A stretch of DNA of 64,000 bases, taken from positions 5,890,001 through 5,954,000 of the forward strand of contig NC_015953.1 of assembly GCF_000177195.2 (NCBI RefSeq), given 5' to 3'. The notes beneath the pieces are model-generated. The model did not search any database. It saw only the letters and a program-made list of their open reading frames with translations, and was not told where the DNA came from. Numbering within the stretch: position 1 is the first letter of the stretch; each line of letters opens with the position of its first letter. The DNA is from Streptomyces sp. SirexAA-E (lineage in GTDB: Bacteria; Actinomycetota; Actinomycetes; Streptomycetales; Streptomycetaceae). Of this stretch, positions 16,822-55,569 are shown piece after piece. The position numbers were made by a program, and so were the translations under genes.

Positions 16822-16857
16822 GGTGGTGCCCTTGCGGTGAGAGGGTGGCCGGGCCCA

Positions 16858-16871
16858 TGGGAACGCTCCCA
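16858..16871. promoter_or_regulatory. CebR-like operator
   Basis: TGGGAACGCTCCCA differs at one position from the 14-bp CebR box TGGGAGCGCTCCCA known for cellobiose/cellotriose control in Streptomyces. It lies 36 nt upstream of the binding-protein start codon, where it could overlap the promoter or leader. Confidence 0.6.
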
Positions 16872-16932
16872 CGGGATGTTCGTCAAGCCCCTGCGCGGAT
16901 TCGGCTGTGTCACGGCGGGGGGACGACTGCGG

Positions 16933-16965
16933 GGTGCCCGGCGGCCGGAACGCCGCCGGGGCACC
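16933..16965 (-). terminator. hairpin after xylose isomerase
   Basis: A 13-bp GC stem (GGTGCCCGGCGGC with one bulged G in the other arm) begins 7 nt past the xylA stop. It probably separates xylA transcription from the importer operon. Confidence 0.55.
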
Positions 16966-16971
16966 GGGGAA

Positions 16972-18141: not shown

Positions 18142-18466
18142 CGGTCAGCCTCTTGTCCACGAGAGCCGGTCGGCTGCACTGCCGGCCGGCACCAATTTGT
18201 TTGCTTGGAGTACTAATACGCCATCCCGTCAAGGGTTTCTAGACCGTTTCCGTGATGTTTCGGTCACATGGCGCAAACATGGCTGCTCGGAAGCGCTTCA
18301 CCTCGGGGGTGCCCACCCGGGCAATCCGGGAATTCCCGCTGCGGACCGCCCTGTCGGTCATATTTGTTTTGTGTACGATCAAAATGAAGAGGACCCGCAG
18401 CCGCGCTTGCCGCAGGCGCCCTGACGTCCCGCAGTCCAGCACTTCTGATCCGGCTAAGGACCCCCC
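18142..18466. promoter_or_regulatory. divergent control region xylA / alpha-xylosidase
   Basis: 325 bp without a gene. It holds AATTTGTTTGCTTGG (18194-18208), similar to the AGTTTGTTTG half-site of ROK-type xylose operators. It also has the perfect palindrome GAAGCGCTTC (18290-18299), the core of LacI-family operators, and TTTTG-N8-CAAAA (18367-18384). TTGACG on the minus strand near 18229-18234 could be a -35 for xylA. Confidence 0.45.
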
Positions 18467-38064: not shown

Positions 38065-38073
38065 CCGACGCTC

Positions 38074-38120
38074 CACGGCCGCGCCCCCTCGCCCGTCCGG
38101 GCGGAGGGGGCGCGGCCGTG
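38074..38120 (+). terminator. terminator after dxs
   Basis: A 17-bp perfect GC stem (38074-38090 with 38104-38120) and a 13-nt loop, 10 nt after the dxs stop. Confidence 0.85.
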
Positions 38121-38293
38121 TCCGGGCTCCGCACCGGCTGCCGTACGCCCGTTCGGCCGAGCGGATTTCCCTCTCCCGGGGCCCATCGGGTGAATCGCCC
38201 TCTCCTGCCGCCCGTCGGCCGCGCGCCCTCTCGATCATGACCGTGGTGCGGACAACGCGAGGAAGCGGCGACGGACATCACGGAGGCTGACCG

Positions 38294-39775
38294 ATGAGCA
38301 CACTGTTCCGGACGAAATCGGTCGAGCAGTCGATCAGGGATACGGAGGAACCCGAGCACGCCCTGAAGAAGTCCCTCTCCGCGCTCGACCTCACGGTGTT
38401 CGGGGTCGGAGTGATCATCGGGACCGGCATCTTCGTCCTCACCGGCAAGGTCGCCAAGGAGACGGCCGGGCCCGCCACGGCACTCGCCTTCGTCGTCGCC
38501 GGCATCGTCTGCGCGCTGGCCGCCCTGTGCTACGCCGAGTTCGCCTCGACGGTGCCGGTGGCCGGGTCCGCGTACACGTTCTCCTACGCCTCGCTCGGTG
38601 AACTCGTCGCATGGATCATCGGCTGGGACCTCGTGCTCGAATTCGCCCTGGGCACGGCGGTCGTGGCGGTCGGCTGGTCCGGCTACGTCCGCTCGCTCCT
38701 GGACAACATCGGCTGGTCGATGCCCGAGGTGCTCTCCGGGCCCGACGTCGCCGACGGCTTCGGCTTCGACATCCTGGCGTTCGTGCTGGTGCTCGTCCTG
38801 ACGGTCATCCTGGTGCTCGGCATGAAGCTCTCCGCCCGGGTCACCACCGTCGTCGTCGCCGTCAAACTGGCCGTCGTGGGGATCGTGATCGTCGCCGGCC
38901 TGTTCTTCGTCAAGTCGGCCAACTACACGCCTTTCGTCCCCGACGCCGAACCCCAGCCCTCCGGCTCCGGCTGGGACGCGCCGCTGGTCCAGCTGGTGTT
39001 CGGCTACGCCCCCACCAACTTCGGCCTCCTGGGTGTCTTCACCGCGGCCTCCATCGTCTTCTTCGCCTTCATCGGCTTCGACGTCGTGGCCACCGCGGCC
39101 GAGGAGACGAAGGTCCCGCAGCGCGACATGCCGCGCGGCATCCTCGCCTCGCTCCTCATCTGCACGGTGCTCTACGTCGCGGTGTCCCTCGTGGTCACCG
39201 GGATGCAGCACTACACCGAACTCTCCGTCAGCGCCCCGCTCGCCGACGCCTTCAAGGCACTCGGACACCCCTTCTACGCGGGGGTCATCAGCTTCGGCGC
39301 CGCAGTCGGGCTCACCACCGTCTGCCTGATCCTGCTGCTCGGCCAGACCCGGGTCTTCTTCGCGATGAGCCGCGACGGGCTGCTCCCGCGCTTCTTCTCC
39401 AAGACCCACCCGCGCTTCGGCACCCCGTACCGTCCGACGATCCTGCTCGGCGTGATCATCGCGGTCGTCGCGGGCGTCACCAGCATCAACGAACTGGCGA
39501 CGCTGGTGAACATCGGCACGCTCTTCGCGTTCGTCGTCGTCGCCCTGGGCGTCATCGTCCTGCGCCGCACCCGACCCGACCTGCCCCGGGCCTTCCGTAC
39601 CCCGTGGGTGCCGCTGCTGCCGGTCGTCTCGGTGGCCGCGTCGGTCTGGCTCATGCTGAACCTGCCCGCGGAGACATGGCTGCGGTTCGGGATCTGGATG
39701 GTGATCGGGGTGATCATCTACGCCGTCCACGGCCGCCGGAACAGCGGTCTGGCCAAGGCGGCCGCCCGCCGCTGA
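38294..39775 (+). CDS. APC family amino acid permease
   Basis: Protein of 493 aa with about twelve membrane helices. The APC signature of helix 1, TVFGVGVIIGTGIFVLTG, and later FFAFIGFDVVATAAEETKVP (helix 6 region) are clear; it is closest in style to cationic amino acid transporters. A soluble head of about 30 aa and a basic tail lie inside. ATG 38294 has GGAGG about 8 nt upstream. Substrate unknown; no metabolic gene nearby gives a hint. Confidence 0.92.
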   Translation: MSTLFRTKSVEQSIRDTEEPEHALKKSLSALDLTVFGVGVIIGTGIFVLTGKVAKETAGPATALAFVVAGIVCALAALCYAEFASTVPVAGSAYTFSYASLGELVAWIIGWDLVLEFALGTAVVAVGWSGYVRSLLDNIGWSMPEVLSGPDVADGFGFDILAFVLVLVLTVILVLGMKLSARVTTVVVAVKLAVVGIVIVAGLFFVKSANYTPFVPDAEPQPSGSGWDAPLVQLVFGYAPTNFGLLGVFTAASIVFFAFIGFDVVATAAEETKVPQRDMPRGILASLLICTVLYVAVSLVVTGMQHYTELSVSAPLADAFKALGHPFYAGVISFGAAVGLTTVCLILLLGQTRVFFAMSRDGLLPRFFSKTHPRFGTPYRPTILLGVIIAVVAGVTSINELATLVNIGTLFAFVVVALGVIVLRRTRPDLPRAFRTPWVPLLPVVSVAASVWLMLNLPAETWLRFGIWMVIGVIIYAVHGRRNSGLAKAAARR

Positions 39776-39788
39776 GGGGGCGCCCCGC

Positions 39789-40184
39789 TCAGGCCCCGGG
39801 CCGTACCGTGCGCGGGCCCGCGCACCGGGCCCCGTACGCCTCGACCCGTCGGCGCAGTTCCCGGTCGGCCGTGACCACCAGGCACGTACGGTCCGGCGCA
39901 CCGGAGGCCCAGTCGGCGACCAGGCCGACGATCCGGTCGTCGCCCTCGTCCGGGGCGCTCTCCACGCGTACACCCGGTACGCAGTCCACGCCCCGGGCGG
40001 CGCCCTCCACGACCAGCACCACATCGAGCGGCCCGGGGAGGCCGGGGAGCCCGGCCGCGGCGTACGGGACCAGCGAGTCCCGCAGCCGCTCGGCGGCACC
40101 GCGTCTGTCGCGCCACCAGCCGTCCGGCACCGACCCGACCACGTTCGCCGCGTCGACCACGACCAGGGCCCGTTCGTTCGTCAC
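39789..40184 (-). CDS. NYN/PIN-like domain protein
   Basis: Protein of 131 aa with a Rossmann-like fold typical of NYN (YacP-like) ribonucleases. The N-terminal acidic strand VVVDAANVVGSVPDGWW, the central DEGDDRIVGLVADWA and the last VVTADRELRRRVEAYGA supply the usual Asp residues of a metal-binding nuclease pocket. In streptomycete annotation such proteins are often called NTP pyrophosphohydrolase; the motif pattern fits a nuclease better. It is convergent with the permease, 13 nt apart, and 20 nt upstream of the LCP stop on the same strand as LCP. Confidence 0.65.
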   Translation of the reverse strand: MTNERALVVVDAANVVGSVPDGWWRDRRGAAERLRDSLVPYAAAGLPGLPGPLDVVLVVEGAARGVDCVPGVRVESAPDEGDDRIVGLVADWASGAPDRTCLVVTADRELRRRVEAYGARCAGPRTVRPGA

Positions 40185-41753: not shown

Positions 41754-41759
41754 GTGGGC

Positions 41760-42878
41760 ATGCGAGTGAGGTCCGGGCGTGCGGCGCGGGTGAGCCGCCC
41801 AGGCGACACGGCCGACACGGAGAAGAAGGCGGCCGCTTCGACGCCCCGCGCCGTGGTCGTGGAAGGGCCGTGGCTCTCCATGGGTAAGGACGGTCGGCTG
41901 ACCGCGTTCACGCGTGTCGACGGGGGGCTGCGGCGTTGGACGCAGGTCCGCCCTGCCGGGCGGGAGTGGACCGGACCTGACTCCTTTTCCGCTCCGGCGT
42001 TGTCGCATCTGTCGGTGGCGCAGGGCGTGGACGGATTCGTCCGCCTCCTCGGGCGTCGTGTCTCCCGTGAGGGCGGTGCCGCTGCCGTGGTCCAGGCCAC
42101 TCAATTCCAGACGGGCCGTCCGGTCACGGAATGGAAGGTCGTGGGCAATCCGCACAACGACGCCGACAGCGCCGGGCGCATGGGCGCCCCGGTGGTCGCG
42201 GTGAGCGGATCGGGTCGCGTCCACGCCTTCGTGGCGAACGCCGGCGGAGGGGTGTCGATGCGCCGCGAGGGTGCCAACGGTGCGTGGGAGCCGTGGCGTG
42301 ATCTCCAGGGGAGTGGTGCGCAGGAAGGGTTGGTCGCTTCCTCCCTCGCTTCCGGGCGCATCGAACTCTTCGTGCCCGGTACGGGCTCCGTCCTGCGTTG
42401 GCGGCAGGCTGAGCCCGACGGTGCCATGGACCGGTGCCCCGACCTGCAGATCGCCGTGCGTCCCGGAAGTGCCATGGGGCTGGAGACCGCGCCGGACCGT
42501 GTGACGTACTACTGGGCGGACGCCGGGACGGGCGCTCTTGTCGCGCACCGGCCCGGCAGCTGGGTGATTCCGTTGGGAGGCGGGCAGGTCGACGGGCGCG
42601 TCGCGGCTCTCCGGACGTGGCTGGACGGCTACGACTGCACGGTGCTCGCCCACCGGGGCCTGGACGGCCGGATCATGATCGCCGCCTGTGGGACGGAGAA
42701 CGAAGGCGGGGGCCTTTGGTGGTCACCGACCGGGGAGAAGGCCGGCGGGTCGCCGGCGTTGGCGTGCGACGCCGAAGGCCGGGTCGTGTTGGCGGTGACC
42801 GGCGACGACGGAGCGCTGCGCATCGCCCGGCAGACGGACGAAGCCGGTTTGGCTATGGCGCCCTCGGTGAGGGTCTGA
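41760..42878 (+). CDS. beta-propeller lectin-like protein
   Basis: Protein of 372 aa with no signal peptide or membrane helix. It contains repeated blades of the tectonin/PLL-like kind, each with a pattern such as GRVHAFVANAGGGVSMRRE, WEPWRDLQGSG and GRIELFVPGTGSVLRWRQ. It aligns co-linearly with the C-terminal half of the PIG-L deacetylase at 48819-50819 (shared WKVVGNP / WEVVGNP, then HAFVANAG / HVFVRNFG). Such propellers bind sugars or glycopolymers. ATG 41760 has AAGGG about 7 nt upstream. It opens the surface-polymer cluster; its role may be recognition or chaperoning of the polymer. Confidence 0.65.
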   Translation: MRVRSGRAARVSRPGDTADTEKKAAASTPRAVVVEGPWLSMGKDGRLTAFTRVDGGLRRWTQVRPAGREWTGPDSFSAPALSHLSVAQGVDGFVRLLGRRVSREGGAAAVVQATQFQTGRPVTEWKVVGNPHNDADSAGRMGAPVVAVSGSGRVHAFVANAGGGVSMRREGANGAWEPWRDLQGSGAQEGLVASSLASGRIELFVPGTGSVLRWRQAEPDGAMDRCPDLQIAVRPGSAMGLETAPDRVTYYWADAGTGALVAHRPGSWVIPLGGGQVDGRVAALRTWLDGYDCTVLAHRGLDGRIMIAACGTENEGGGLWWSPTGEKAGGSPALACDAEGRVVLAVTGDDGALRIARQTDEAGLAMAPSVRV

Positions 42879-43140
42879 CGCGCTGTCGCTCCCTGGGTCG
42901 ATGGGTCCACCCCTTGATGTGGTCCGCGCTGCCTGGGGTGATGGGGGTTTCGCATAGGGGGTCAGAGGCGTAACGAACGCGCATATAACTTGTTCACGGA
43001 TGGACAAAAGTCGACCAAGATGTGAAGATCCTGTGGCGGCCCGTCTGCCTCCAGCGACAGGTCCCGCGCGATGAGGCTTTCGGTGGGACCGAAGAGTGAG
43101 ACGGGGCTGCGGCCCCTGTGTATGGGTGGGGCGAACTTCT
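42879..43140. other. intergenic gap before first Stealth gene
   Basis: 262 bp with no gene. It contains a weak dyad around 42989-43010 (CTTGT ... ACAAAAG). Possibly a second promoter for the Stealth genes, since the gap is longer than others in the cluster. Confidence 0.3.
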
Positions 43141-44940
43141 GTGAGCGGCAGCAATCCTGAGACCAGTGCGCTTGTGTCGACATATCGGTCTTTGGTTCCG
43201 GTTCGAGCCCGTCGTCGACTCGTACGACGCGTTCCCGCCCCACTCCGCAACCTGGTCATGCACGCGCTCGCGAGCTTCGACTCCGCCCGTTCGGCCGTCG
43301 TCGTACGGGCGCTGGGCGGTCGCCGGAAGCCCGCCAGGCACAGCGCCGAGGCTTCCCTCCGGGTGGTCCGGGTCCAGGGCAGGCACGTCCGCGCGGCGGT
43401 GGTGCGCGGAGCCACCGAGTGGGCCGCGCGGGCCAGGAACTTCCACATGCTTGTCGAGATCCTGGAAGAGGCCGAGATCGCGTACTTCGCCGTGCGGGGG
43501 ACCGGGAAGAGCATTCCGTGCGTCGCCGTGTCCGCGCGGCTGCGCGACGACGTCGAGGAAATCCTCCAGCTCGCCTTCGGACGCAATCCCGGCTACGCGG
43601 CCGAGGGGGCGGGTGGACAGCTGAGGGCCGGTTCGTCGGCGCAGACGTGGCGGCGGCTCCGCTCCAGCGCGGTGATACGCCTTTCCTGGAACGTCTGTGA
43701 TCCGACCGGGCATTTGATCTTCGGCCCGGAATCCGGCTGCGATCTGGAATTCTGGTCCGAGGAAGAAGGCGCGCTGATCGCCCCCAGGCCCAACTCCGTG
43801 CTGGCGCGGGTATCCGTCGCCGCGGAAGGCCGGATGGCTGAGCAGAAACTCTTCAGCCCGGTTCCGAGTCAGTACCACACGGGGTATGCCCGTACGCTTC
43901 CCGACTTCACCGTTCGGCTGCCGGAGGACCACGCCTACCCCATAGACGTCGTGTACACCTGGGTCGACGCCGACGATCCGGTCTGGCGCGCGGGCAAGGA
44001 GGCGGTCCGGCGTGGCCTGCGGCCGGACACCGAGGTGCGCCTGCACGAGCAGGCCGACAACGCCGCCCGGTACACGAGCCGTGACGAACTCCGGTACTCC
44101 CTCCGGTCGATCCACCAGTACGCGCCTTGGGTCCGCAACATCTTCCTCGTCACCGCGGGGCAGACACCGGGCTGGCTGAACACCGAACATCCCGGGATCA
44201 GAGTGGTGGACCACGAGGAGATATTCTCCGCTCCGTCGGCCCTGCCGACTTTCAACTCGCACGCCATCGAGAGCCAGCTGCACCACATCCCGGATCTCTC
44301 CGAGCACTTCCTCTACCTCAATGACGACGTGTTCTTCGGCCGTCCGGTGCAGCCGGACCTCTTCTTCCATCCCAACGGCCTGACCAAGTTCTTCATGTCG
44401 AAGGCGCTCATCCCCCCGGGCACCACGACGCCCGAGGACCTCCCGGTGGACGCCGCCGGGAAGAACAGCCGCGGGCTCATCGCCCAGCAGTTCGGCACGG
44501 TCATCTCGCAGAAGATGAAGCACACGCCGCACGCTCTGCGCCGTTCCGTGCTGGACGAGATCGAGCAGACGTACTCCCGCGCCCACTGGGTGACGCAGCA
44601 TTCGACGTTTCGCTCGCCGAACGACATCCCCATCGCGTCGTCGCTCCACCACTACTTCGCCTACCACCTGGCGCGCGCCACGCTGGGCAGTCTGCGGTAC
44701 GTCTACATCGACATCGGTGACGCCCTGGCGCAGCGCCGGCTGGACCGGCTCGTCGCCAGGCGGGACTTCGACACGTTCTGCATCAACGACACGGTGGTTC
44801 CGGCGGACCCCGCCGCCCAGGAGCTCATGGTGAAACGTTTCCTCGAAAGCTACTTCCCCGTGCCGAGCCCGTACGAGCTGCCCGGGGCCGAAGGACTGCC
44901 GACCAGGCGTACCGCCGAGCTGGGACGGACACACCAGTGA
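43141..44940 (+). CDS. Stealth family sugar-phosphate transferase
   Basis: Protein of 599 aa. Residues about 265-600 carry the Stealth conserved regions: CR1 YPIDVVYTWVDADDPVW, CR2 YTSRDELRYSLRSIHQYAPW with LPTFNSHAIESQLHHI and HFLYLNDDVFFGRP, and later CR3/CR4 (HTPHALRRSVLDEIE, ASSLHHYFAYHLA). The acidic and His residues of the GlcNAc-phosphotransferase-like active site are retained. Stealth enzymes transfer sugar 1-phosphate from a nucleotide sugar, building poly(glycosyl phosphate) chains. Residues about 100-190 form a separate alpha/beta module (EIAYFAVRGTG) also found in the GT4-Stealth protein. GTG 43141 is the likely start. Cytoplasmic. Confidence 0.87.
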   Translation: MSGSNPETSALVSTYRSLVPVRARRRLVRRVPAPLRNLVMHALASFDSARSAVVVRALGGRRKPARHSAEASLRVVRVQGRHVRAAVVRGATEWAARARNFHMLVEILEEAEIAYFAVRGTGKSIPCVAVSARLRDDVEEILQLAFGRNPGYAAEGAGGQLRAGSSAQTWRRLRSSAVIRLSWNVCDPTGHLIFGPESGCDLEFWSEEEGALIAPRPNSVLARVSVAAEGRMAEQKLFSPVPSQYHTGYARTLPDFTVRLPEDHAYPIDVVYTWVDADDPVWRAGKEAVRRGLRPDTEVRLHEQADNAARYTSRDELRYSLRSIHQYAPWVRNIFLVTAGQTPGWLNTEHPGIRVVDHEEIFSAPSALPTFNSHAIESQLHHIPDLSEHFLYLNDDVFFGRPVQPDLFFHPNGLTKFFMSKALIPPGTTTPEDLPVDAAGKNSRGLIAQQFGTVISQKMKHTPHALRRSVLDEIEQTYSRAHWVTQHSTFRSPNDIPIASSLHHYFAYHLARATLGSLRYVYIDIGDALAQRRLDRLVARRDFDTFCINDTVVPADPAAQELMVKRFLESYFPVPSPYELPGAEGLPTRRTAELGRTHQ

Positions 44941-45881
44941 TACCTCGACGATCCCACCTCCGCGCGGCTCGGGGCCGACTGGAGGCCCGTGCCGCCGCCT
45001 TGCGCTCGTGGCTCATCCTGCGCGTCTTCCTGCCGCGCCGTTCCAGGCACACGGCACGGCTGAAGTACGCAGCCGTGCTCGACGGTCAGACGGTCAACCT
45101 CCACGCCGAGCTGCCACGGTCGGTCCGGCTGCCGGACCACGCGGAACTCGTCCTCACACGCGGCCGACGGCACCACGAAAGTCCTGCCCGTGTCTACGAG
45201 GGCGGCGACGGCACCCTGCTCATGGACGCGGCCGTACTGCTCGGGGCCGAGGTGGGTGGCGCCCCGGTGGACCCCGGCCGCTGGCAGGTCAGACTGCGGC
45301 TGCGCACAGGGAGCCGGACACGCCGCATACCGTTGCTGCTGGTGGAACTGCCCACTCCGTACGAGGGCCCGACCAAGCCGATGACGGCATCCGGCGTGAC
45401 CGGCCGACGCCACCGGATCGGCCGGTCCGTCACCGGGAACATGCGTGTGGTCACCGCAGTCGCCAAGCCGGGCGCCGAAGTCGTCAAGGTGCACATCACC
45501 CATGCGGGGATCTCCGTCGACTTCCGGCTTCTCGGTATCCGGATCGACGAGCCCGAGGCGGAGTTCATCGCCTCGGGACGCCGACTGCGACAGCCCGTCA
45601 CCGTGCTGGCCGACGGGACCGCCAGGGTCGAGGTCCCGCTGGAGGGCATGGCCCCGCGCCGGAGCCGGCCCGAACACTGGGACGTCGCGGTGACCGGGGC
45701 GTCCGGCCGCACCTTCCGGCTGGGACGTCGTCTGCACGACGTCCGTAACCCCCTCCGGGTCTTCGCGATGCGTGCGACGGCGATCGCCCCGCGGGGGCAG
45801 CGCCCCCTGCTCGTCCAGCCCCGCTACACGCCTGCGGGCAACCTCCGCATCACCTGCACCCCGATGCCAGAAATCGGCTGA
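44937..45881 (+). CDS. beta-rich protein of unknown function
   Basis: Protein of 314 aa. The first 45 residues are Arg-rich and amphipathic (RSHLRAARGRLEARAAALRS). The rest is a series of beta-strands with short loops and two similar halves of about 120 aa (each ending in a W-V-L/V-R or WDVAVTG strand), suggesting two beta-sandwich domains. No signal peptide is evident. It overlaps the Stealth gene (GTGA) and lies 8 nt before the GT4-Stealth gene, so it is fully embedded in the pathway. It may be a scaffold or polymer-binding subunit. I recognise no family. Confidence 0.7.
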   Translation: MIPRRSHLRAARGRLEARAAALRSWLILRVFLPRRSRHTARLKYAAVLDGQTVNLHAELPRSVRLPDHAELVLTRGRRHHESPARVYEGGDGTLLMDAAVLLGAEVGGAPVDPGRWQVRLRLRTGSRTRRIPLLLVELPTPYEGPTKPMTASGVTGRRHRIGRSVTGNMRVVTAVAKPGAEVVKVHITHAGISVDFRLLGIRIDEPEAEFIASGRRLRQPVTVLADGTARVEVPLEGMAPRRSRPEHWDVAVTGASGRTFRLGRRLHDVRNPLRVFAMRATAIAPRGQRPLLVQPRYTPAGNLRITCTPMPEIG

Positions 45882-45889
45882 AAGACCAG

Positions 45890-48763
45890 ATGAAGATCAC
45901 TTTCCTGCTGACTACCGCCGATGCCGTGGGAGGAACCGAACGCGCCGTCTTCAACCAGGCGTCGGAACTCGCGGCAGGCCACGACGTGCGCGTGCTGAGC
46001 GTTTTCAAGTCCAAGGCGGCCCAGTTCTTCTCGCCCGACGAACGAGTGCGCGTCGACTATCTCGTCGACCTCACGGGACCTGTTCAGCGCCCCCTGCGCG
46101 ACACGACGGTGGACGACGCGGCCTGGGCGGCACTGTCCGCGCAGCCCAGTCGCATCGTGGACCGCGCCTGGGAGGCCGCGTTCAACCGGGTCTCGGACCT
46201 GGAACTCGAACTGGCGTTGCAGGACACGGACACCGACGTACTGATCACCACCACGCCCGCGCTCATGGCCCTCGCGGTTCACCTGGCACCCTCATGGGTG
46301 GTCACGGTGCATCAGGAGCACCGGGTGTCCGAACTACGCGGTACCAGCGGCGAGCCGCTCCTGCGCTATTCCGCCAAGCTCGACGCGCTCGGCGTGCTGA
46401 GCGAGCGGACCCGGGAATGGTTCGCGGAGACCCTGGGGACGGCCGCGCCGAGGCTGGAAGTCGTACCCAACGCCCTCCCCGGTGGATTCCGCCCGAGGTC
46501 GACCCTGGAGACCCGGACGGTCGTCATCGCCGGGCGGCTGGTGGGCGAGAAGCAGATCGACCACGCCGTCACGGCCTGGGCGACGGTGGCGCGGCGGCAC
46601 CCTTCGTGGACCTTGCGGATCTTCGGGGACGGGCCGCTCAGCGGCGCGCTCCGACGCCAGATCGACGCGCTCGGCCTGCACGACAGCGTCCAGCTCAACG
46701 GCAACTCACCGCATCTCGCGGAGGAGTGGGCCAAGGCCAGCATCGCCCTGCTGACCTCACGCAACGAAGCCTTCGGGCTCGTCCTCGCCGAGGCACAGGC
46801 CGCCGGTGTACCGGTGGTCTCCTACGACTCGCCCAACGGGCCCCGTGAGGTGATCATCGACGGTCACTCCGGGATGCTGGTGCCCACCGGCGACATCGAC
46901 GCGCTGACCGCCTGCCTGCTCCGGCTCATCGAGGACGCACCGCTACGACACCGCATGGGCGAGGCCGCTCTGGAGGTCGTCGGGCGTTTCGCTCCGGCGG
47001 TGGTCACCGGCCGGTGGGAACGCATCTTCGCGGAACTCGTCGCTGACCGGGACGCCGGCCGCCGGGACACGGCCAAGACCGAGCGACAGGCCATGCACGA
47101 CCTGCTCAGCGGGGGAGACGGCACCGTGCCGGCCGCCTCCCCGGCGCCCGCCAGCACCGTGCGTACCGGCAACCAGCGCGCGTCGGAGGACCGCCTGCTC
47201 AAGGGCGACCGCGGGCTGGTCCGCGACGGCGGACAGCTGTGCAAGGTCATCGAGTGGGAATCTCCCTGGGACATCGTCCAGGCCAATCTGGCGCTCGCCG
47301 CCGATGTGCTGGAGGGCGCGGACATCCCCTACTTCGTGGTGCGTGACTCCCTGGTGAGGCACACCGTCGCCGTGCACGCCTCCTACTGGGAGGCCACCTT
47401 GAAGTCACTCGCCGGCGCCTACCGGGACCGGGCGGTGTACGCCTCGGTGCTCAACGAGAACCAGAACGCGGTCGCCACGGTGCTCGCGGGCCTCCTCGAG
47501 AACTACCTCGGCACCCCTGGCTCGGGGGTACGCGTCTACCAGAGTGCCGTGGCCCGGTCCCGCACACTCAGGCTCGGCGCCGTCTACGGCTGCACCATCT
47601 CGTTCTGGGACGACGACCCGGAGGACGGGGCATTCCTCACCTCTCCCACCCGGACCCTCATCGGTGACCGGGTGCCCAAGCAGGCCATGACGCGCACCCC
47701 TCTCACCCTGGGGGCGCGCGTCTATCCCTCGATCACGCCCTTCACCCGTCCCCTGCACGGCGATGTGACGTTCCCCGTCGACGCCGTGTACACGTGGGTC
47801 GACGGAGCCGACCTGGACTGGCTGGAACGCAAGAACACAGCCCTGGCCGGGCTGGGTCTGGAGACCGAGGACGCGGCCACGAGCGCGGCCAGGTTCCGGG
47901 ACCGGGACGAGCTGCGCTACTCACTGCGCTCGATCGACATGTACGCGCCGTGGATCCGGAACATCTACCTGGTCACCGACCAGCAGGTGCCGTCCTGGCT
48001 CGACACCGAGCACCCCCGTGTCCGGGTCGTCGACCACAGGGAGATCTTCGGACCGCGCGGGATGCTGCCGACCTACAACTCCCATGCGATCGAGAGCCAA
48101 CTGCACCACATCGAAGGCCTGGCGGAGCACTTCCTCTACTTCAACGACGACGTCTTCGTCGGCCGGACCCTCCAGCCCGGCATGTTCTTCCACAGCAACG
48201 GCCAGGCGAAGCACTTCATGTCGCCCACCGCCGTGCCGATGGCTCCGGCGAGCTACGCCGACGAGTTCAACATCAGCGCGGCCAAGAACAACCGGGCGCT
48301 CATCGAAGCCACCTTCGGCCAGGTGCTGGCGCATTCCTTCCTGCACGCCCCCCACCCGCTGCGCCGCAGCGTGCTGGAGGAGATCGAGGAGTACTACCAG
48401 GGGCCCATGGCGACGACGGCCGCCAACCAGCTACGCAACCACAGCGATGTCTCCGTCGCCTCGTCGCTGCACCACTACTACGGCTATCACACGCTGCGCA
48501 GTGTGCCGGGAAGCATCTCCTGCGGCTTCGTCAACGTCGGCCTGAGCGACCACAAGCCGCGCCTGAACCGCATCCTGACGGCCCGTCCGCACGACGTCTT
48601 CTGCCTCAACGACTTCCATGACGGGGACGTTTCGGAGGAGGAACAGGACTCGATACTCACGGCCTTCCTCCCCAGCTACTTCCCCGTCGCGAGCCAGTTC
48701 GAGAAGGGTTCGCCACGCAATCAGCGCGCCCGCATCGGCAGCCTCCCGGGGTGGCCCATGTGA
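45890..48763 (+). CDS. bifunctional GT4 glycosyltransferase-Stealth protein
   Basis: Protein of 957 aa with three parts. Residues 1-390 form a GT4 glycosyltransferase (N-terminal LLTTADAVGGTERAVFNQA; nucleotide-sugar EX7E-type region SRNEAFGLVLAEAQAAGVPV). Residues about 440-620 form the same alpha/beta module as in the other Stealth protein (ADIPYFVVRDSLVRHTVAVH). Residues about 628-957 form a Stealth phosphotransferase (FPVDAVYTWVDGADLDW, FRDRDELRYSLRSIDMYAPW, HFLYFNDDVFVGRT, ASSLHHYYGYH). A single polypeptide could thus add one sugar by glycosidic and one by phosphodiester linkage, as needed for a diglycosyl-phosphate repeat. Cytoplasmic; products inferred. Confidence 0.87.
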   Translation: MKITFLLTTADAVGGTERAVFNQASELAAGHDVRVLSVFKSKAAQFFSPDERVRVDYLVDLTGPVQRPLRDTTVDDAAWAALSAQPSRIVDRAWEAAFNRVSDLELELALQDTDTDVLITTTPALMALAVHLAPSWVVTVHQEHRVSELRGTSGEPLLRYSAKLDALGVLSERTREWFAETLGTAAPRLEVVPNALPGGFRPRSTLETRTVVIAGRLVGEKQIDHAVTAWATVARRHPSWTLRIFGDGPLSGALRRQIDALGLHDSVQLNGNSPHLAEEWAKASIALLTSRNEAFGLVLAEAQAAGVPVVSYDSPNGPREVIIDGHSGMLVPTGDIDALTACLLRLIEDAPLRHRMGEAALEVVGRFAPAVVTGRWERIFAELVADRDAGRRDTAKTERQAMHDLLSGGDGTVPAASPAPASTVRTGNQRASEDRLLKGDRGLVRDGGQLCKVIEWESPWDIVQANLALAADVLEGADIPYFVVRDSLVRHTVAVHASYWEATLKSLAGAYRDRAVYASVLNENQNAVATVLAGLLENYLGTPGSGVRVYQSAVARSRTLRLGAVYGCTISFWDDDPEDGAFLTSPTRTLIGDRVPKQAMTRTPLTLGARVYPSITPFTRPLHGDVTFPVDAVYTWVDGADLDWLERKNTALAGLGLETEDAATSAARFRDRDELRYSLRSIDMYAPWIRNIYLVTDQQVPSWLDTEHPRVRVVDHREIFGPRGMLPTYNSHAIESQLHHIEGLAEHFLYFNDDVFVGRTLQPGMFFHSNGQAKHFMSPTAVPMAPASYADEFNISAAKNNRALIEATFGQVLAHSFLHAPHPLRRSVLEEIEEYYQGPMATTAANQLRNHSDVSVASSLHHYYGYHTLRSVPGSISCGFVNVGLSDHKPRLNRILTARPHDVFCLNDFHDGDVSEEEQDSILTAFLPSYFPVASQFEKGSPRNQRARIGSLPGWPM

Positions 48764-48818
48764 CGTACCCCGTGACACCTCCCGTCGACCCGTCCGGAGA
48801 CGCACAGAAGGCCACCGC

Positions 48819-50819
48819 ATGAACTCTCCAGCCCAGCCGCCACGTCAGGCATCGGTCGTCCAGATCCTCGCCCACCCGGACGACGACCTGTACTTCGTCA
48901 ATCCGGACCTCCAGCGCGCCGTCGAGGCCGGGCACCCGATCGCCAGCGTCTATCTGACGGCCGCCGAGGCGGACGGCCGGAACATCGACACCCGGGACCA
49001 GACGCGCGGCGCGGTTCCGCCGGACTATTCGGGCTACATGGCTGCCCGGCAGAACGGACTGCGCGCGGCGTACGCGGTCATGGCCACAGGGGAGCGGGAC
49101 AGCCCGTGGTCACGCGACGTCGTCGAGTTCTCGGCAGGAGTACTGGCCGAACGGTCCACGCTTCTCGCCGCACCTCACATCCAGCTGTACTTCCTCGGCG
49201 TGCGGATGGTGGACGCCGCGCACGGCTTCTCCCCGGACGTTCCCCCCTCGCGGCTGGCGACTCTGTGGAGCGGCCGGTCGCCGGTCGCACCGACCCTCGT
49301 CGCCGAGGACTCGCCCCTGCGGCAGGTGCAGGAACTGAGCAGCGAGAGTGTCCTGCTCTGTCTGGTCGAGATGATGCGGTACTTCCGGCCCACGGTGGTC
49401 TGGACGATGGATCCCGACCCGCAGCACACCGCCTGGGACAAAGCGAAGGGACCGTCCTCCAGCGATCACCAGGACCACACGGCCACCGCGCAGTTCGCCC
49501 TGGAGGCGGTGGACCGCTATCAACGTGCTGGAGGTGTGCCGCCTCTGGTGGAGCACTACCGGGGCTATGCCAACAAGCTCTGGCCGAGCAACCTCACCGA
49601 GACCGCCTATGCCGAGAAGAAGCGTCTGATCGACGTCTACGGTGGCGCGGACGGGCATCCGTGCACCCATCGTCACTGCGGTGACCACCAGCTCGGCGAC
49701 GGAGCGGACATCCGCCGCTACGGATGGAGCACGGCCTCGCGCTATGCACCTGGTACCGGCTGGCTGCGACTCCGCCCCGATGGGCGGCTGGCCGCCTACG
49801 CGGTCATGGGCGGGCGGGTCGCCGTCTGGACCGAGTCCGTCCCCGGCGGACCGGAATGGGTCGGACCGCTCTTCCTGCAGGGGGCCGGACTGTTGCCGGC
49901 GCTCACTGTGGCGCCCGACCGCCGAGGTTCCGTCCACCTCGTAGGCCTGCGTCGTACGTCGGGCCCGGGGGGCACCGCGGAGGTGGAGGTGGTCCGCGCC
50001 TGGCTGAGAGGTGAGGAAGCCTCTCCGTGGGAAGTCGTCGGCAACCCGCAGGGATACACGGGGGACTGGCAGCGGTGCCGTGAGGTCGGAGTACCGGCCG
50101 CGGTGACCGACCCGGCCGGTCGTCTCCATGTGTTCGTGCGCAACTTCGGCTTCGGCCTGAGTGCCCGCCGGGAGACCGACGAGGGCTGGTCCGACTGGGA
50201 GGACCTCGGCGGCGCCGGGCTGCAGGACGCACCGTCCGCCGTTCTGACGTCCACCGGTCGCATCGAGGTCTACGCCCCGACCCGCCAAGGCGTTTCGCGC
50301 TGGAAGCAGGATGCCGTCTACGGTCCCTTCAGCCATGACAGCGGGCTGCTCGTCCCCACGCAGGACACCTGGCGGCCCGCTGGTGGCATCACCCCGCTCC
50401 AAACCGGGCGTTCACGGATGTCCCTCTTCTACCGCGAGGAAGAGTCGGCAGAGATCCGCGAACACCGGCAGCAGCCTGGGCCGGGGGGATGGCCCGCAGA
50501 GGCGGAAAGCCTGGGGGGTGCCGGTGGCACCGGTCCCGTGGCGGCACTGCGCCGTCTCGGAGAGGGACACGACGCGATCGTGCTGGCCCGACGCAACGCC
50601 GCCGGCGGGGTCGGAGTCGCCGTCCTGGCCAACGACCGGCGGCGCGGGGTGCCTCTCTGGGAGGAGTCGCGCTTCTTGACCGTGGGAGCGCCGTCCCTGG
50701 CTGCCGACTGCCAGGGGCGCGTGGTCACAGCGGTGGTCGGTATCGACGGGCGACTGCGTGTCCGGCGGCAGGGAGAGCCGTTCGCCGAGAGCGGCTTCGC
50801 CGACTGGACGACCGTCTGA
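48819..50819 (+). CDS. PIG-L deacetylase with C-terminal beta-propeller
   Basis: Protein of 666 aa. Residues 1-290 form a PIG-L/LmbE N-deacetylase with the zinc motif AHPDDD (His18) and the later SSDHQDHTATAQ, which deacetylates N-acetyl sugars. Residues about 310-666 form a multi-blade propeller related to the free protein at 41760-42878, with blades such as GRLHVFVRNFGFGLSARRE and GRIEVYAPTRQGVSRWKQ. There is no signal peptide. ATG 48819 is chosen (AAGG about 7 nt upstream); the open frame further upstream overlaps the GT4-Stealth gene. Likely removes acetyl groups from GlcNAc residues of the cluster's polymer, with the propeller docking on the substrate (inference). Confidence 0.85.
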   Translation: MNSPAQPPRQASVVQILAHPDDDLYFVNPDLQRAVEAGHPIASVYLTAAEADGRNIDTRDQTRGAVPPDYSGYMAARQNGLRAAYAVMATGERDSPWSRDVVEFSAGVLAERSTLLAAPHIQLYFLGVRMVDAAHGFSPDVPPSRLATLWSGRSPVAPTLVAEDSPLRQVQELSSESVLLCLVEMMRYFRPTVVWTMDPDPQHTAWDKAKGPSSSDHQDHTATAQFALEAVDRYQRAGGVPPLVEHYRGYANKLWPSNLTETAYAEKKRLIDVYGGADGHPCTHRHCGDHQLGDGADIRRYGWSTASRYAPGTGWLRLRPDGRLAAYAVMGGRVAVWTESVPGGPEWVGPLFLQGAGLLPALTVAPDRRGSVHLVGLRRTSGPGGTAEVEVVRAWLRGEEASPWEVVGNPQGYTGDWQRCREVGVPAAVTDPAGRLHVFVRNFGFGLSARRETDEGWSDWEDLGGAGLQDAPSAVLTSTGRIEVYAPTRQGVSRWKQDAVYGPFSHDSGLLVPTQDTWRPAGGITPLQTGRSRMSLFYREEESAEIREHRQQPGPGGWPAEAESLGGAGGTGPVAALRRLGEGHDAIVLARRNAAGGVGVAVLANDRRRGVPLWEESRFLTVGAPSLAADCQGRVVTAVVGIDGRLRVRRQGEPFAESGFADWTTV

Positions 50820-50879
50820 CCACGCCGGTACGAGTCGGATCCATGCCAGGACAACAGGGCCAATGAGGAACAGAACGTC

Positions 50880-52268
50880 ATGAGGAAGATCTGCATCGTC
50901 GGCAACTCCGTCGCCGCGTCCAGGACACCCGCGGAGTCGCCGCTGGCCGGCTGGGGCCAGTACCTGGCCGAGTTCTTCACGGATCAGTGGGAAGTGAAGA
51001 ACTACGCGCGGGACGCGATGACCGCCCGCGACTACTATCCCGGCCGGTTCGTCGCCCTGCTGAACATGCTGAAGCCGGGCGACGTCGTGGCCGTCGACTT
51101 CGGCGGTGTGGAGCAGCGGATCAACATGGTGATCCGTTACCACAGCCACAGGGAGTTCAGGGAATACCTCCGGCTGTACGTGGAGGGAATACGCACACAG
51201 AACGCCGTTCCCGTGCTCGTCACCCCCGCCGCCCGCTGTACGTTCGACGTCGACGGCAATGTGCTCGACACGCGTGACGGCTATCCGGACGTCGTCCGGC
51301 AGGTCGCGGCGGAGACGGAGTCTCCGCTCGTCGACCTGAACGCCCTCACCACGGACTTCCTGCGGGGCCTCGGCCCCACACGCGCGAAGCAGTTCTTCCG
51401 CTGGGTCGATGCAGGCGAGCACCCGAACCACCCGGAAGGCATCATCGACGCCTCCCACTTCAACGAGGCGGGTGCTCGGGAGGTCGCGAAGATGTTCGCA
51501 TCCGCCCTTCACACACTGCCGGGCCTCCCCGAGGACCTCGTGCGTCCCGAAACCCTGGTCCCCGCCGTCTATCCACCGGTGCTGCCGGAATTCACGGTGG
51601 AGAATCCGGATTACGCGCTCTACGCCACGGAACGCACCGGCGCCGCACCGGCGATCGCGAAGCCGGACAGGGCGGCGCTCGTCGGCGCATCGCCGAAGTT
51701 CAGCGGCACGGTCCACCCCGGTACGGATTACGTCCTCTTCTTCGCGAACGGCGTATACGCGGGAGGCACGGGCGTCGGGCCGGACGGCACGTGGAAGTGG
51801 CGACGCGCCGTGCAGTGGCCCGAGGGGGACCACCTGCTCCAGGCGGTCGGTCTGACGCAACACGGCGTCTCACCCGCAGCCGAGCTCCCCTTCACCGTGC
51901 TGGACCGGATCGCGCCCCCGCGGGTCAACGGTCCCGCGGAGGGAGCGTGGAGCGGTCCACGGCCCCGCTTCTCGGGAACCGCGCCGAAGGGCGTGAGGAA
52001 GGTGATGGTGCTGGAGGGTGAACGGATGATCGCCGAAGCGCCGGTTCGCGACGACGGCACGTGGAACGTCACCCACCCACACGACTGGAGGCCGGGACTC
52101 CACACCGTTGAGTTCGTCTCCGTCTTCAGCGCCATCCACTCCGAACCGGCCCGCCGCACCTTCAGGGTCCTCGGCGTCCCGGACGGAAACTGGCTCAGGG
52201 AGTCGGCGGGATCCCGGCTGCCGTGCGGTGGCGACGCGTGTGAGCACCACCCCTTCGCCGGCCCCTGA
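50880..52268 (+). CDS. SGNH hydrolase with Ig-like repeats
   Basis: Protein of 462 aa. Residues 1-225 form an SGNH/GDSL esterase of the rhamnogalacturonan-acetylesterase style. Block I is GNSVA, with Ser in the GDS position; the block V Asp/His pair is DASHFNEAGA, and VTPAARCTFD is also typical. Residues about 260-440 hold two Ig-like repeats (PKFSGTVHPGTDYVLFFANG and PRFSGTAPKGVRKVMVLEGE) of the bacterial surface-repeat kind. No signal peptide is seen, unusual for an esterase with such repeats, so it may act inside the cell on precursor polymer. Probably removes or transfers O-acyl groups. Confidence 0.78.
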   Translation: MRKICIVGNSVAASRTPAESPLAGWGQYLAEFFTDQWEVKNYARDAMTARDYYPGRFVALLNMLKPGDVVAVDFGGVEQRINMVIRYHSHREFREYLRLYVEGIRTQNAVPVLVTPAARCTFDVDGNVLDTRDGYPDVVRQVAAETESPLVDLNALTTDFLRGLGPTRAKQFFRWVDAGEHPNHPEGIIDASHFNEAGAREVAKMFASALHTLPGLPEDLVRPETLVPAVYPPVLPEFTVENPDYALYATERTGAAPAIAKPDRAALVGASPKFSGTVHPGTDYVLFFANGVYAGGTGVGPDGTWKWRRAVQWPEGDHLLQAVGLTQHGVSPAAELPFTVLDRIAPPRVNGPAEGAWSGPRPRFSGTAPKGVRKVMVLEGERMIAEAPVRDDGTWNVTHPHDWRPGLHTVEFVSVFSAIHSEPARRTFRVLGVPDGNWLRESAGSRLPCGGDACEHHPFAGP

Positions 52269-53439: not shown

Positions 53440-55569
53440 CTACGCCAGAACGCTCGCCACGCCCTGCTCCAGGAACTTCTTCCCGTTGACCCGCTCGGAG
53501 ACGCCCTCGCGGTCCAGGTACGGCGTGATGCCGCCCAGGTGGAAGGGCCAGCCCGCGCCGGTGATCAGGCAGAGGTCGATGTCCTGGGCCTCGGCGACGA
53601 CGCCCTCGTCCAGCATCAGGCCGATCTCCTGCGCCACCGCGTCCAGGACGCGGTCGCGGACCTGGTCCTCCGTCAGGACGGTGTCGCCCTGCTCGAGGAG
53701 GGCGGCGACCTCGGGGTCCAGCTCCGGGTTGCCGGAGTCGTAGACGTAGAAGCCGCGCTTGCCCGCCTTGACGACCGCCGCGAGGTTCTCGGAGACCGTG
53801 AAGCGCTCGGGGAACGCGCGGTTCAGGGTCTCGGAGACGTGCAGGCCGATGGCCGGGCCGACCAGCTCCAGCAGCACCAGCGGGGACATCGGCAGGCCGA
53901 GCGGCTCGATGGCCTTCTCCGCCGTCTCGACCGGGGTGCCCTCGTCGATGATGTTCTGGATCTCGCCCATGAAGCGGGTGAGGATGCGGTTGACGACGAA
54001 CGCCGGGGCGTCCTTCACCAGCACCGCGGTCTTCTTCAGCTTGCGGGCGACACCGAACGCCGTGGCCAGCGAGGCCTCGTCGGTCTGCTCGCCGCGCACG
54101 ATCTCCAGCAGCGGGAGGACCGCGACCGGGTTGAAGAAGTGGAAGCCGACGACCCGCTCCGGGTTCTTCAGCTTCGACGCCATCTCGGTGACCGAGAGGG
54201 ACGAGGTGTTCGTGGCGAGGATCGCGTGCGCCGGGGCGACCGCCTCGACCTCCGCGAACACCTGCTGCTTGACGCCGATCTCCTCGAAGACGGCCTCGAT
54301 GACGAAGTCGGCGTCGGAGAAGCCCTCCGCCTTGTCCAGCACACCGGTCACCAGGGCCTTGAGGCGGTTGGCCTTGTCCTGGTTGACGCGGCCCTTGCCG
54401 AGCAGCTTGTCGATCTCGGCGTGGACGTAGCCCACGCCCTTGTCGATCCGCTCCTGGTCGATGTCCGTGAGGACGACCGGGACCTCCAGGCGGCGCAGGA
54501 AGAGCAGCGCGAGCTGGCTGGCCATCAGGCCCGCGCCCACCACGCCGACCTTGGTGACCGGGCGGGCCAGGGACTTGTCCGGGGCACCGGCCGGGCGCTT
54601 GGCGCGCTTCTGGACCAGGTTGAAGGAGTAGATCCCGGACCGCAGCTCGCCGCCCATGATCAGGTCGGCGAGAGCCTGGTCCTCGGCGTCGAAGCCGGCC
54701 CCCAGGTCGCCGCTCCTGGCCGCGCCGATGATCTCCAGCGCGCGGTACGCGGCCGGGGCCGCCCCGTGCACCTTGGAGTCGGCGATCGCCTTGCCTCGGG
54801 CGACGGCCTGGTCCCAGGCATCCCCGCGGTCGACCTCGGGGCGCTCGACGGCGATCTCGCCCTTGAGGACGGACGCGGTCCACAGCAGCGACTGCTCCAG
54901 GAAGTCCGCGCCCTCGAAGATCGCGTCGGCGATCCCGAGCTCGTAGACCTGCTTGCCCTTGAGCTGACGGTTCTGGTTCAGCGCGTTCTCGATGATCACC
55001 GAGACGGCGCGGTCGGCACCGATCAGGTTGGGGAGCAGCGCGCAGCCGCCCCAGCCCGGGACCAGCCCGAGGAAGACCTCGGGCAGCGAGAAGGCCGGGA
55101 TGGCCTGCGAGACGGTGCGGTACGAGCAGTGCAGACCGATCTCCACACCGCCGCCCATGGCCGCGCCGTTGTAGTACGCGAACGTCGGGACCGCGAGGGA
55201 GGACAGACGCCGGAAGACGTCGTGGCCGCCCTTGCCGATGGCCAGCGCGTCCGAGTGGTTCTTGAGCAGCTCGACGCCCTTGAGGTCCGCGCCGACCGCG
55301 AAGATGAACGGCTTGCCGGTGACGCCGACACCGGTGACGGTGCCCTCGGCGGCCTCCTTCTCGACCTGGTCGATGGCGGCGTTGAGGTTCGCCAGCGACT
55401 GCGGGCCGATGGTGGTCGGCTTGGTGTGGTCCAGGCCGTTGTCCAGCGTGATCAGGGCGAACCTGCCCGCGCCGCCCGGAAGGTCGAGGTGGCGTACGTG
55501 CGCCTCGGTGACGACCTCGCCGGGGAACAGCTCGGCCGCGCCCTTCAGAAGCTCGGTGGTGGAGCTCAC
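53440..55569 (-). CDS. fadB: FadB-type 3-hydroxyacyl-CoA dehydrogenase/enoyl-CoA hydratase
   Basis: Protein of 709 aa. Residues 1-300 form an enoyl-CoA hydratase (oxyanion hole YNGAAMGGGVEIGL; catalytic Glu region PEVFLGLVPGWGG). Residues 325 onward form a 3-hydroxyacyl-CoA dehydrogenase with the NAD motif VGVVGAGLM and HFFNPVAVLPLLEIVRG. GTG 55569 overlaps the thiolase stop (GTGA), so the long frame reaching 56502 is a shadow. Together with the upstream thiolase it performs the last three steps of fatty acid beta-oxidation in the cytoplasm. Confidence 0.95.
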   Translation of the reverse strand: MSSTTELLKGAAELFPGEVVTEAHVRHLDLPGGAGRFALITLDNGLDHTKPTTIGPQSLANLNAAIDQVEKEAAEGTVTGVGVTGKPFIFAVGADLKGVELLKNHSDALAIGKGGHDVFRRLSSLAVPTFAYYNGAAMGGGVEIGLHCSYRTVSQAIPAFSLPEVFLGLVPGWGGCALLPNLIGADRAVSVIIENALNQNRQLKGKQVYELGIADAIFEGADFLEQSLLWTASVLKGEIAVERPEVDRGDAWDQAVARGKAIADSKVHGAAPAAYRALEIIGAARSGDLGAGFDAEDQALADLIMGGELRSGIYSFNLVQKRAKRPAGAPDKSLARPVTKVGVVGAGLMASQLALLFLRRLEVPVVLTDIDQERIDKGVGYVHAEIDKLLGKGRVNQDKANRLKALVTGVLDKAEGFSDADFVIEAVFEEIGVKQQVFAEVEAVAPAHAILATNTSSLSVTEMASKLKNPERVVGFHFFNPVAVLPLLEIVRGEQTDEASLATAFGVARKLKKTAVLVKDAPAFVVNRILTRFMGEIQNIIDEGTPVETAEKAIEPLGLPMSPLVLLELVGPAIGLHVSETLNRAFPERFTVSENLAAVVKAGKRGFYVYDSGNPELDPEVAALLEQGDTVLTEDQVRDRVLDAVAQEIGLMLDEGVVAEAQDIDLCLITGAGWPFHLGGITPYLDREGVSERVNGKKFLEQGVASVLA

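Follow-up and report, generated by a model that had tools for sequence, protein, structure and literature searches.

Which surface polymer is made by a streptomycete gene cluster that carries two Stealth phosphotransferases, and is that cluster a fixed possession of its host? The question is raised by a 64,000-nucleotide stretch of the Streptomyces sp. SirexAA-E chromosome (NC_015953.1, positions 5,890,001 to 5,954,000; hereafter the window), in which six plus-strand open reading frames (ORFs; P0002 to P0007, within 41754-52268) stand between a divergent LCP ligase gene (P0001) and a convergent gene for an EEP-fold enzyme (P0008). In order, they encode a propeller, a Stealth enzyme, a protein with two immunoglobulin-like (Ig) domains, a GT4-Stealth fusion, a PIG-L deacetylase fused to a second propeller, and an SGNH protein. 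A first-pass annotation took the six genes for a unit, a dedicated cell-wall or spore-coat poly(diglycosyl phosphate) system. Judged by comparison across the genus, they occupy a conserved slot bounded by an amino-acid permease gene on one side and the fatty-acid oxidation gene fadJ on the other. Eight or more unrelated kinds of polymer cassette are found in this slot, which in other genomes is nearly empty, and close relatives often differ. The slot is thus very probably a serotype-like exchange site for surface polymers. We put at roughly 0.6 the probability that the window's cluster is one allele of this site and works from the cytosolic side, either to build a glycosyl-1-phosphate polymer or to extend wall teichoic acid.

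The slot is a conserved feature of Streptomyces: a close match to fadJ is present in 100/101 genus genomes, and the permease, where found in the slots of this genome collection (the G genomes), is 68-92% identical to that of the window. The 100 genomes gave 101 fadJ-side stretches (one genome twice), of which 84 carry both anchors on one stretch; the 17 excluded stretches include contig ends and cases in which the permease was not near, and six of them are typed or bear an LCP gene. Slot length falls into two groups, with 46 short slots (0.5-5.2 kb) that are untyped and 38 long ones (6.9-17.5 kb) that are typed; all of the long slots hold surface-polymer markers, and none above 5.3 kb lacks them. 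Types were set by marker genes drawn from the clusters in these same slots, with Pfam run on representatives (30 proteins), and comprise two Stealth, three TagF/Tar-like, one synthase/UDP-glucose dehydrogenase, one polysialyltransferase-like and one poly-gamma-glutamate class. Type I, to which the window belongs, is Stealth/Ig/GT4-Stealth (5/84); type II has several Stealth genes with GT4, often GT4-Ig (4/84); type III combines a GT2-GT2-TagF-like protein and a CDP-alcohol transferase, joined in many slots by a phosphodiester glycosidase of the NAGPA kind (8/84); type IV is GT2-TagF (3/84); type V has a weak TarF-like gene, usually a TarIJ-like fusion and sometimes a TarS-like gene (4/84); type VI has a processive GT2 with UDP-glucose dehydrogenase (2/84); type VII is polysialyltransferase-like with a cytidylyltransferase (2/84); type VIII is CapA/B/C poly-gamma-glutamate (9/84); one slot (1/84) is IV+VIII; and 46/84 have no type. 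We recognised no description of this slot in the literature searched, from which most subscription papers were out of reach.

Two of these classes carry details of their own. The poly-gamma-glutamate slots (L066, L068, L078, L097, L100, L108, L116, L123, L126 and L135) occur in both orientations and are without LCP except L078, which also carries a TagF-type cassette. The NAGPA-type glycosidase lies beside GT2-GT2-TagF-like genes in 6/8 type III slots of the G genomes (L057, L070, L074, L092, L093 and L094) and is possibly a matched hydrolase. A second set of loci from named strains, the best 80 of 286 LCP relatives with titles that are all Streptomyces or [Kitasatospora] papulosa, holds 19 of type IV, 16 of III, 14 of II, 13 of I, 11 of none, 4 of V and 3 of a mixed class, "IX", of Stealth with GT2/TagF-like genes. 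Some of these repeat G genomes (e.g. L217 and L036, L155 and L051), and since they were chosen by LCP likeness they are uninformative on LCP frequency.

Cassette type was set against lineage on a FastTree phylogeny of permease and fadJ DNA from 83 loci, in which the two flanking genes serve as a proxy for the species tree. Type changes 34 times on this tree against a mean of 35.8 in shuffles, a value as low being reached in 24/200; for types I, II, IV, V, VI and VII the number of changes equals the number of members. Among pairs in which both loci are typed, the same type is shared by 0/9 at flank identity of at least 92%, 3/25 at at least 90% and 12/77 at at least 88%, and random pairing of typed loci would, by arithmetic from the type counts, give about 14%. 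The smallest starred set of five that contains the window's locus includes types I, II, IV and V and one untyped slot, and three loci with flanks 94.8-95.6% identical are of types I (L037), V (L113) and III (L094). Slots differ even under one species name (S. atratus L149 I and L161 III; S. anulatus L176 V and L177 untyped; S. globisporus L160 III and L175 untyped), and two S. griseus records (L168, L181) are both type I; the collection counts every named record as a species of its own, and the names may therefore mislead. Traces of past occupancy are also present: pieces of slot genes persist in the short slots L062, L067, L077, L165 and L190, the first three of which are cassette remnants, and L078 holds two adjacent cassettes.

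A fixed, dedicated poly(diglycosyl phosphate) system of the wall or spore coat, maintained without cassette exchange, is therefore very hard to credit. The complete Stealth domains and the LCP gene next door would suit it, but close relatives hold other polymer classes in the slot, which contradicts the fixed part of the proposal, and a full-length GT4-Stealth is found in only 14/101 genus genomes (the window's own included), at 15 loci. Six of the 15 adjoin LCP in the fadJ slot, and one of these six (L038) reaches a contig end before fadJ. The wider searches show the full-length fusion to be rare beyond the genus: an E-value of 1e-150 was reached in 11/119 genomes of the order, every one from the window's genus (ten over nearly the full length, and G133 over residues 1-663), and 1e-120 in 4/246 genomes of the class, one of them outside the order; L243 (G423), from another family of the class and outside the order, has a full-length relative at 51% identity.

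Nor do the six genes hold together as a unit. The exact order occurs in 3/19 type I slot loci, two of which (L036 and L217) appear to be the same contig, and we rejected a fixed six-gene operon; several of the 19 end before fadJ, so that missing last genes there prove nothing. What recurs across loci is the core trio of Stealth, tandem-Ig and GT4-Stealth genes, with the PIG-L-lectin and SGNH genes optional. The first-pass annotation had called for a co-occurrence check of all six, and the outcome is divided, since the trio co-occurs and the full six largely do not. Its broader idea of a sugar-phosphate polymer system fares likewise: the retained active-site residues, the recurring trio and the accompanying LCP speak for it, the six-gene unit does not, and nothing points to spore coat over hyphal wall. 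It had also missed the slot, the exchange with unrelated cassettes and the likely tandem-Ig identity of what it called a beta-rich unknown.

The chemistry of the type I cassette is most legible in its Stealth enzymes, which are the only two Stealth genes of the 7.41 Mb, single-contig genome (G000) by CR1 and CR2 genome searches. In both P0003 and P0005, CR1-CR4 all score above the curated Pfam cut-offs; both align to CpsY (E = 2.8e-77 and 3.6e-68, respectively) and also to the animal GlcNAc-1-phosphotransferase. E305, N322, D324 and R419 of CpsY are named as essential or important in the accessible part of the source (PMC10668966). The corresponding E, N, D and R are kept in both proteins, as read by eye from printed alignments in which chain residue 1 was taken as residue 201; a regular-expression scan for Stealth residues in the other loci missed known cases and was not used for catalytic residues, only its NDD-triplet counts being drawn on below. 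P0003 and P0005 are thus probably complete Stealth sugar-1-phosphate transferases, with activity predicted. The cluster proteins also carry, as read by eye, what we take to be the GT4 E-x7-E, PIG-L HPDD, and SGNH Ser and Asp-x-x-His motifs.

The two enzymes may divide the work. Genes for a P0003-like Stealth (59-64% identical) open cassettes with different polymerases in L051/L155 (the same genome), L157, L182 and L195, which are type II and carry one or two additional GT4 genes, and in L194, L202 and L212, which are of mixed type IX; in some type I loci the P0003 counterpart is no closer (59-62%). This pattern suggests that P0003 may perform a first step common to several cassettes, with P0005 making the repeat. 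In three type II loci (L052:8556-10103, L079 and L091) the middle Stealth paralogue is without the NDD triplet, and in L052, the one scanned, it matches CR2 only in part; it may be a dead enzyme. In L191 (about 16700-19800, oriented coordinates) the GT4-Stealth gene is split, with matches on both strands, as if interrupted or rearranged.

The third member of the trio, P0004, is likely a tandem Ig module like those of the wall teichoic acid enzymes TarS, TarK and RmlT. Its AlphaFold2 model (17 alignment rows, mean predicted local distance difference test score (pLDDT) 84.7) has an N-terminal helix (residues 4-35) and two beta domains. Domain 1 (37-177) resembles TarS 352-491 (Z = 13.3, 2.5 Å over 129 residues), domain 2 (175-313) the N-terminal domain of TarK (Z = 12.2, 3.4 Å over 136 residues), and both together RmlT (Z up to 10.0, 7.8 Å over 202). 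In Foldseek, S. aureus TarS takes rows 1-2 and Listeria RmlT row 4, with low whole-chain TM scores (0.30-0.35); eukaryotic Ig and fibronectin rows interleave with these at similar E-values, and in the second structural comparison unrelated rows, eukaryotic Ig among them, drop to Z = 6.9 or less. We take the eukaryotic likeness of the predicted structure as common-fold background.

A P0004 profile matches the C-terminal half of 5/8 type II and V GT4 proteins (L050, L051, L055, L061 and L091; E = 1e-11 to 5e-6), and P0004 relatives adjoin GT4-Stealth in 19/20 slot matches, the exception being the second piece of the split gene in L191, and in 9/9 loci outside the slot, four of which were in the profile alignment. 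Across the family, the profile is present in 9/121 genomes, from three of 17 genera. Because the Ig module is found both within GT4 proteins and beside GT4-Stealth, these patterns suggest that GT4, Stealth and tandem Ig form one functional set, or machine, whose fusions vary.

Such Ig/GT4-Stealth pairs stand among TagF-type genes in L043, L047 and L048, outside the slot, so that the module may be mobile among polymer loci as well, and they lend some weight to a second explanation: that the cassette makes no separate polymer and instead acts on the polyol-phosphate wall teichoic acid of the TagF locus, to decorate or extend it, as the utr genes of S. griseus do. If it borrowed lipid-linked teichoic acid, the cassette would need neither an initiator nor an exporter. 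No initiating transferase or exporter was recognised among the cluster genes, as the first-pass annotation had already noted, and the genome was not searched for an initiating transferase. Elsewhere on the same chromosome, all five genome matches to TagF (Glyphos_transf, PF04464) lie at 2.748-2.765 Mb, none being in the window, and an ABC-2 permease and ATPase pair sits in the same TagF-rich locus (about 2.747-2.767 Mb). The resemblance of P0004 to domains of TarK and of the wall teichoic acid-modifying TarS and RmlT fits this explanation too, as does a uronic polymer on wall teichoic acid reported for S. griseus in the available sections of PMC13274773. It sits poorly with the separate LCP that goes with the cassettes and with the TarIJ-like and TarF-like genes that most type V cassettes carry for themselves, and we regard this second explanation as possible but rather unlikely. 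As a second polymer locus, the surrounding region (L241 and L242, 2.738-2.777 Mb) holds the five TagF-type proteins, a GT4, a methyltransferase and the ABC-2 exporter pair.

On our preferred reading, of an exchangeable cassette that makes or extends a phosphate-linked glycan, we infer the chemistry, the acceptor, and the lectin and tailoring roles as follows. The cassette would act at the inner face of the membrane, where P0003 would add the first sugar-1-phosphate, P0005 would alternate glycosidic and phosphodiester steps, and P0004 would hold the growing chain, a role that its counterparts in wall teichoic acid enzymes may also have. Acetyl groups would be adjusted by PIG-L and/or SGNH, and the PLL-fold propellers would bind the chain. 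Initiation and export would be supplied from elsewhere, export probably by the TagF locus at 2.75 Mb, and the slot LCP, not specific to one polymer, would ligate the product to peptidoglycan; the acceptor would be either a linkage unit of its own or the wall teichoic acid of the TagF locus. A precedent for the product exists in the -6)Gal(1-6)GlcNAc(1-P- polymer that the available parts of PMC11481543 and PMC7831098 describe from S. coelicolor walls, a structure that one glycosyltransferase and one Stealth enzyme could give.

The propellers assigned to chain binding are putative sugar-binding lectins by predicted structure. The model of P0002 is a seven-bladed propeller (pLDDT 90.3, residues 1-35 of low confidence) closest to the PLL/PHL lectins (Z about 36, 2.2 Å over 313 residues, about 21% identity), and non-lectin propellers reach no more than Z = 25 against it. 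The propeller of P0006 is related to it (35% identity, E = 5e-47). We rejected P0002 as an UmbA umbrella-toxin lectin: UmbA4 has, in the available text of PMC13274773, a secretion signal and an N-terminal trypsin-like domain preceding the propeller, and P0002 is a single propeller with neither a hydrophobic N-terminus nor such a domain. A Phage_RBD_prop match likewise belongs solely to a different propeller, from type V cassettes.

The slot LCP goes with the wall-type cassettes: LCP is present in 27/27 slots of types I-V and VII (IV+VIII counted with IV), 1/2 of type VI, 0/9 of type VIII and 7/46 untyped slots, and among 15 independent pairs on the tree the two traits differ the same way in a mean of 10.8 and the opposite way in 0 (median p = 0.001). 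A secreted capsule or exopolysaccharide unbound to peptidoglycan, with LCP incidental, could be argued from types VI and VIII, which resemble capsule synthases and lack LCP in 10/11 slots (IV+VIII excluded); for the window's cassette, the LCP in every type I-V and VII slot and the joint changes on the tree make it improbable.

LCP presence thus varies with type, and its sequence mostly does not. In each of six host-divergence bins (87 loci), LCP identity of same- and different-type pairs agrees to within about 1 point. The cassette-side propeller nearest LCP gains 9.6 points of residual identity in same-type pairs (51 loci; reached in 0/1000 shuffles), as against 0.15 points for the LCP of the same 51 loci (377-382 of 1000), and the permease-side propeller adjoining LCP also tracks type (14.1 points; 30 loci, 0/1000). 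Over all 79 loci LCP gives 0.7 points (39/1000; distant hosts 105/1000) and the g131 gene 0.7 points (60 loci, 9/1000; distant hosts 524/1000), and in distant hosts both LCP-adjacent propellers keep about 7.8 points (0/1000); the far propeller shows no type tracking (12 loci, 391/1000). These shuffles ignore relatedness, with untyped loci, the IV+VIII locus and near-duplicates left out. By these comparisons the slot LCP, although it accompanies wall-type cassettes, varies with lineage much more strongly than with type. The LCP-adjacent PLL-fold propeller follows type, either as a polymer-matched lectin or by simple co-travel with its cassette.

Several observations weigh against this account. 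On the flank tree, loci of type III cluster to a slight degree (6 changes, where shuffles average 7.8 and are as low in 10/500), LCP does show some type signal in the 30-locus subset (3.4 points, 0/1000; distant hosts 1.5 points, 36/1000), and the link between propeller and type may in part be physical linkage. Sugar specificity is not readable from sequence. Cold trichloroacetic acid can cleave glycosyl-1-phosphate bonds, a point that bears on the wall chemistry of S. griseus, for which L168 and L181 are type I. The S. griseus wall extract, taken with cold 10% trichloroacetic acid from a strain that may differ, showed ribitol/glycerol-phosphate wall teichoic acid and a uronic-acid polymer, and the available wall sections of PMC13274773 report no glycosyl-1-phosphate polymer. 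These data count against an abundant Stealth polymer under those conditions. In S. coelicolor, two genes beside the LCP gene SCO6020, namely SCO6021 and SCO6023, are presumably Stealth genes. In the accessible part of PMC7831098, the ligase tied to poly(diglycosyl phosphate) is PdtA (SCO2578), and the other ten LCP homologues, SCO6020 included, gave no severe phenotype.

As to the window itself, the inventory of the first-pass annotation stands: six same-strand genes, two complete Stealth enzymes of which one is fused to GT4, two related propellers, and the LCP and EEP genes on either side (Table 1). P0003 to P0005 are tightly packed, with a 4-base overlap and then an 8-base gap; 217 bases separate the end of P0002 from the first possible start of P0003, and the most likely start of P0006 lies outside the GT4-Stealth gene. 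Third-position GC of the six genes is 0.83-0.90, compared with 0.91-0.98 for most other genes of the window. Pfam gave no match for P0002 or P0004; in P0007, Big_13 (2.4e-7) is above its cut-off and Lipase_GDSL_2 (2.7e-7) slightly below (31.7 versus 32.9 bits). By a simple hydropathy scan, for which no signal-peptide program was run, P0002 to P0007 show no signal or membrane segment, and such segments are confined to LCP and the EEP protein (within residues 7-25 of the latter); the acetyl tailoring that had been proposed for PIG-L and SGNH would therefore, if it happens, be cytosolic. Few other slots have EEP-type neighbours. A sigma-70 promoter scan gave 0 sites (0.5 on average in shuffles), and the 5 terminator-like sites are close to the 3.0 expected by chance. 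A long ORF antisense to the permease gene (37949-40099, minus strand; conserved at about 45-70%) was rejected as spurious.

Table 1. Genes of the slot in the window (window coordinates), with the anchors that lie outside the cassette.
Feature	Coordinates	Strand	Basis
Amino-acid permease, left slot anchor (outside cassette)	38294..39775	+	Pfam AA_permease_2 2.7e-54
P0001, LCP glycopolymer ligase, one membrane segment	40205..41326	-	Pfam 6.2e-48, hydropathy
P0002, PLL/PHL-fold seven-bladed propeller	41754..42878	+	Predicted structure, fold comparison
P0003, Stealth phosphotransferase (start uncertain, 43096 or up to 43258)	43096..44940	+	CR1-CR4, CpsY alignment
P0004, tandem-Ig protein with N-terminal helix, possible scaffold	44937..45881	+	Predicted structure
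P0005, GT4-Stealth fusion	45890..48763	+	GT4 1.8e-35, Stealth CR1-CR4
P0006, PIG-L deacetylase fused to second PLL-like propeller	48819..50819	+	PIG-L 1.2e-12
P0007, SGNH/GDSL and Ig-like protein	50880..52268	+	Pfam Big_13, Lipase_GDSL_2
P0008, EEP-fold enzyme, N-terminal hydrophobic segment	52349..53317	-	Exo_endo_phos 9.2e-18
fadJ-like fatty-acid oxidation gene, right slot anchor (outside cassette)	53440..55569	-	Pfam, scanned as longer ORF

A more ambitious picture, which we offer as speculation and think improbable as a whole, is a genus-wide "serotype" slot that swaps whole polymer chemistries and is served throughout by one generic LCP; the intracellular PLL-fold lectin of each cassette would match its own polymer and read or present the chain for generic export and ligation, and phages and lectin-guided toxins that recognise the coat would be the force behind the exchange. 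If the exchange-site reading is correct, one fixed site would predict the polymer class that a strain can add to its coat, and Stealth, teichoic, sialic-like and poly-gamma-glutamate classes would be joined in one exchange system. Phage adsorption and lectin-guided toxins could then be related to a second variable locus in addition to utr, and GT4, Stealth and tandem Ig would be a defined three-part machine.

Among known systems, the cluster enzymes share CR1-CR4 and the four active-site residues with the Stealth hexose-1-phosphoryltransferases (CpsY and the catalytic domain of GNPTAB), but differ in that P0005 is fused to GT4 and adjoins a tandem-Ig partner, and in having two Stealth proteins in one cassette. 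The poly(diglycosyl 1-phosphate)/PdtA system of S. coelicolor is of the same genus, with a polymer type compatible with a glycosyltransferase and Stealth and with an LCP ligase, although PdtA lies at another locus and the texts available describe no such polymer from a type I strain. The polymerase of TagF-type wall teichoic acid clusters (Glyphos_transf) is absent from the window's cluster. P0004 has, as single-domain matches, the non-catalytic beta-domain fold of the tandem Ig module of TarS, RmlT and TarK, but not the GT-A catalytic domain of TarS/RmlT-type wall teichoic acid glycosyltransferases, there being no Pfam match and only a helix and two beta domains. P0002 has the seven-bladed fold of PLL/PHL lectins, but lacks a visible signal peptide and lies beside polymer genes, with a second copy in the cluster fused to PIG-L.

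At the level of the locus, the pneumococcal cps capsule exchange locus, which lies between dexB and aliA, and the utr locus (for a teichuronic-acid-like umbrella toxin receptor) are the nearest parallels. Surface glycans differ between Streptomyces species, and utr, as far as the available text of PMC13274773 describes it, is likewise made of variable surface-glycan genes with TarS/TarM-like parts and gives species-specific glycans; it lies beside ribosomal proteins L21/L27 and varies in gene content around a core, whereas the slot is anchored by different genes and exchanges entire polymer classes that are unrelated to one another. With pneumococcal cps the slot shares fixed flanks, non-homologous polymer cassettes and a type that does not follow lineage. 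It differs from cps in being near-empty in many genomes, in having a similar LCP that serves wall-type cassettes, and in belonging to soil actinobacteria, where its classes range from Stealth and teichoic to poly-gamma-glutamate.

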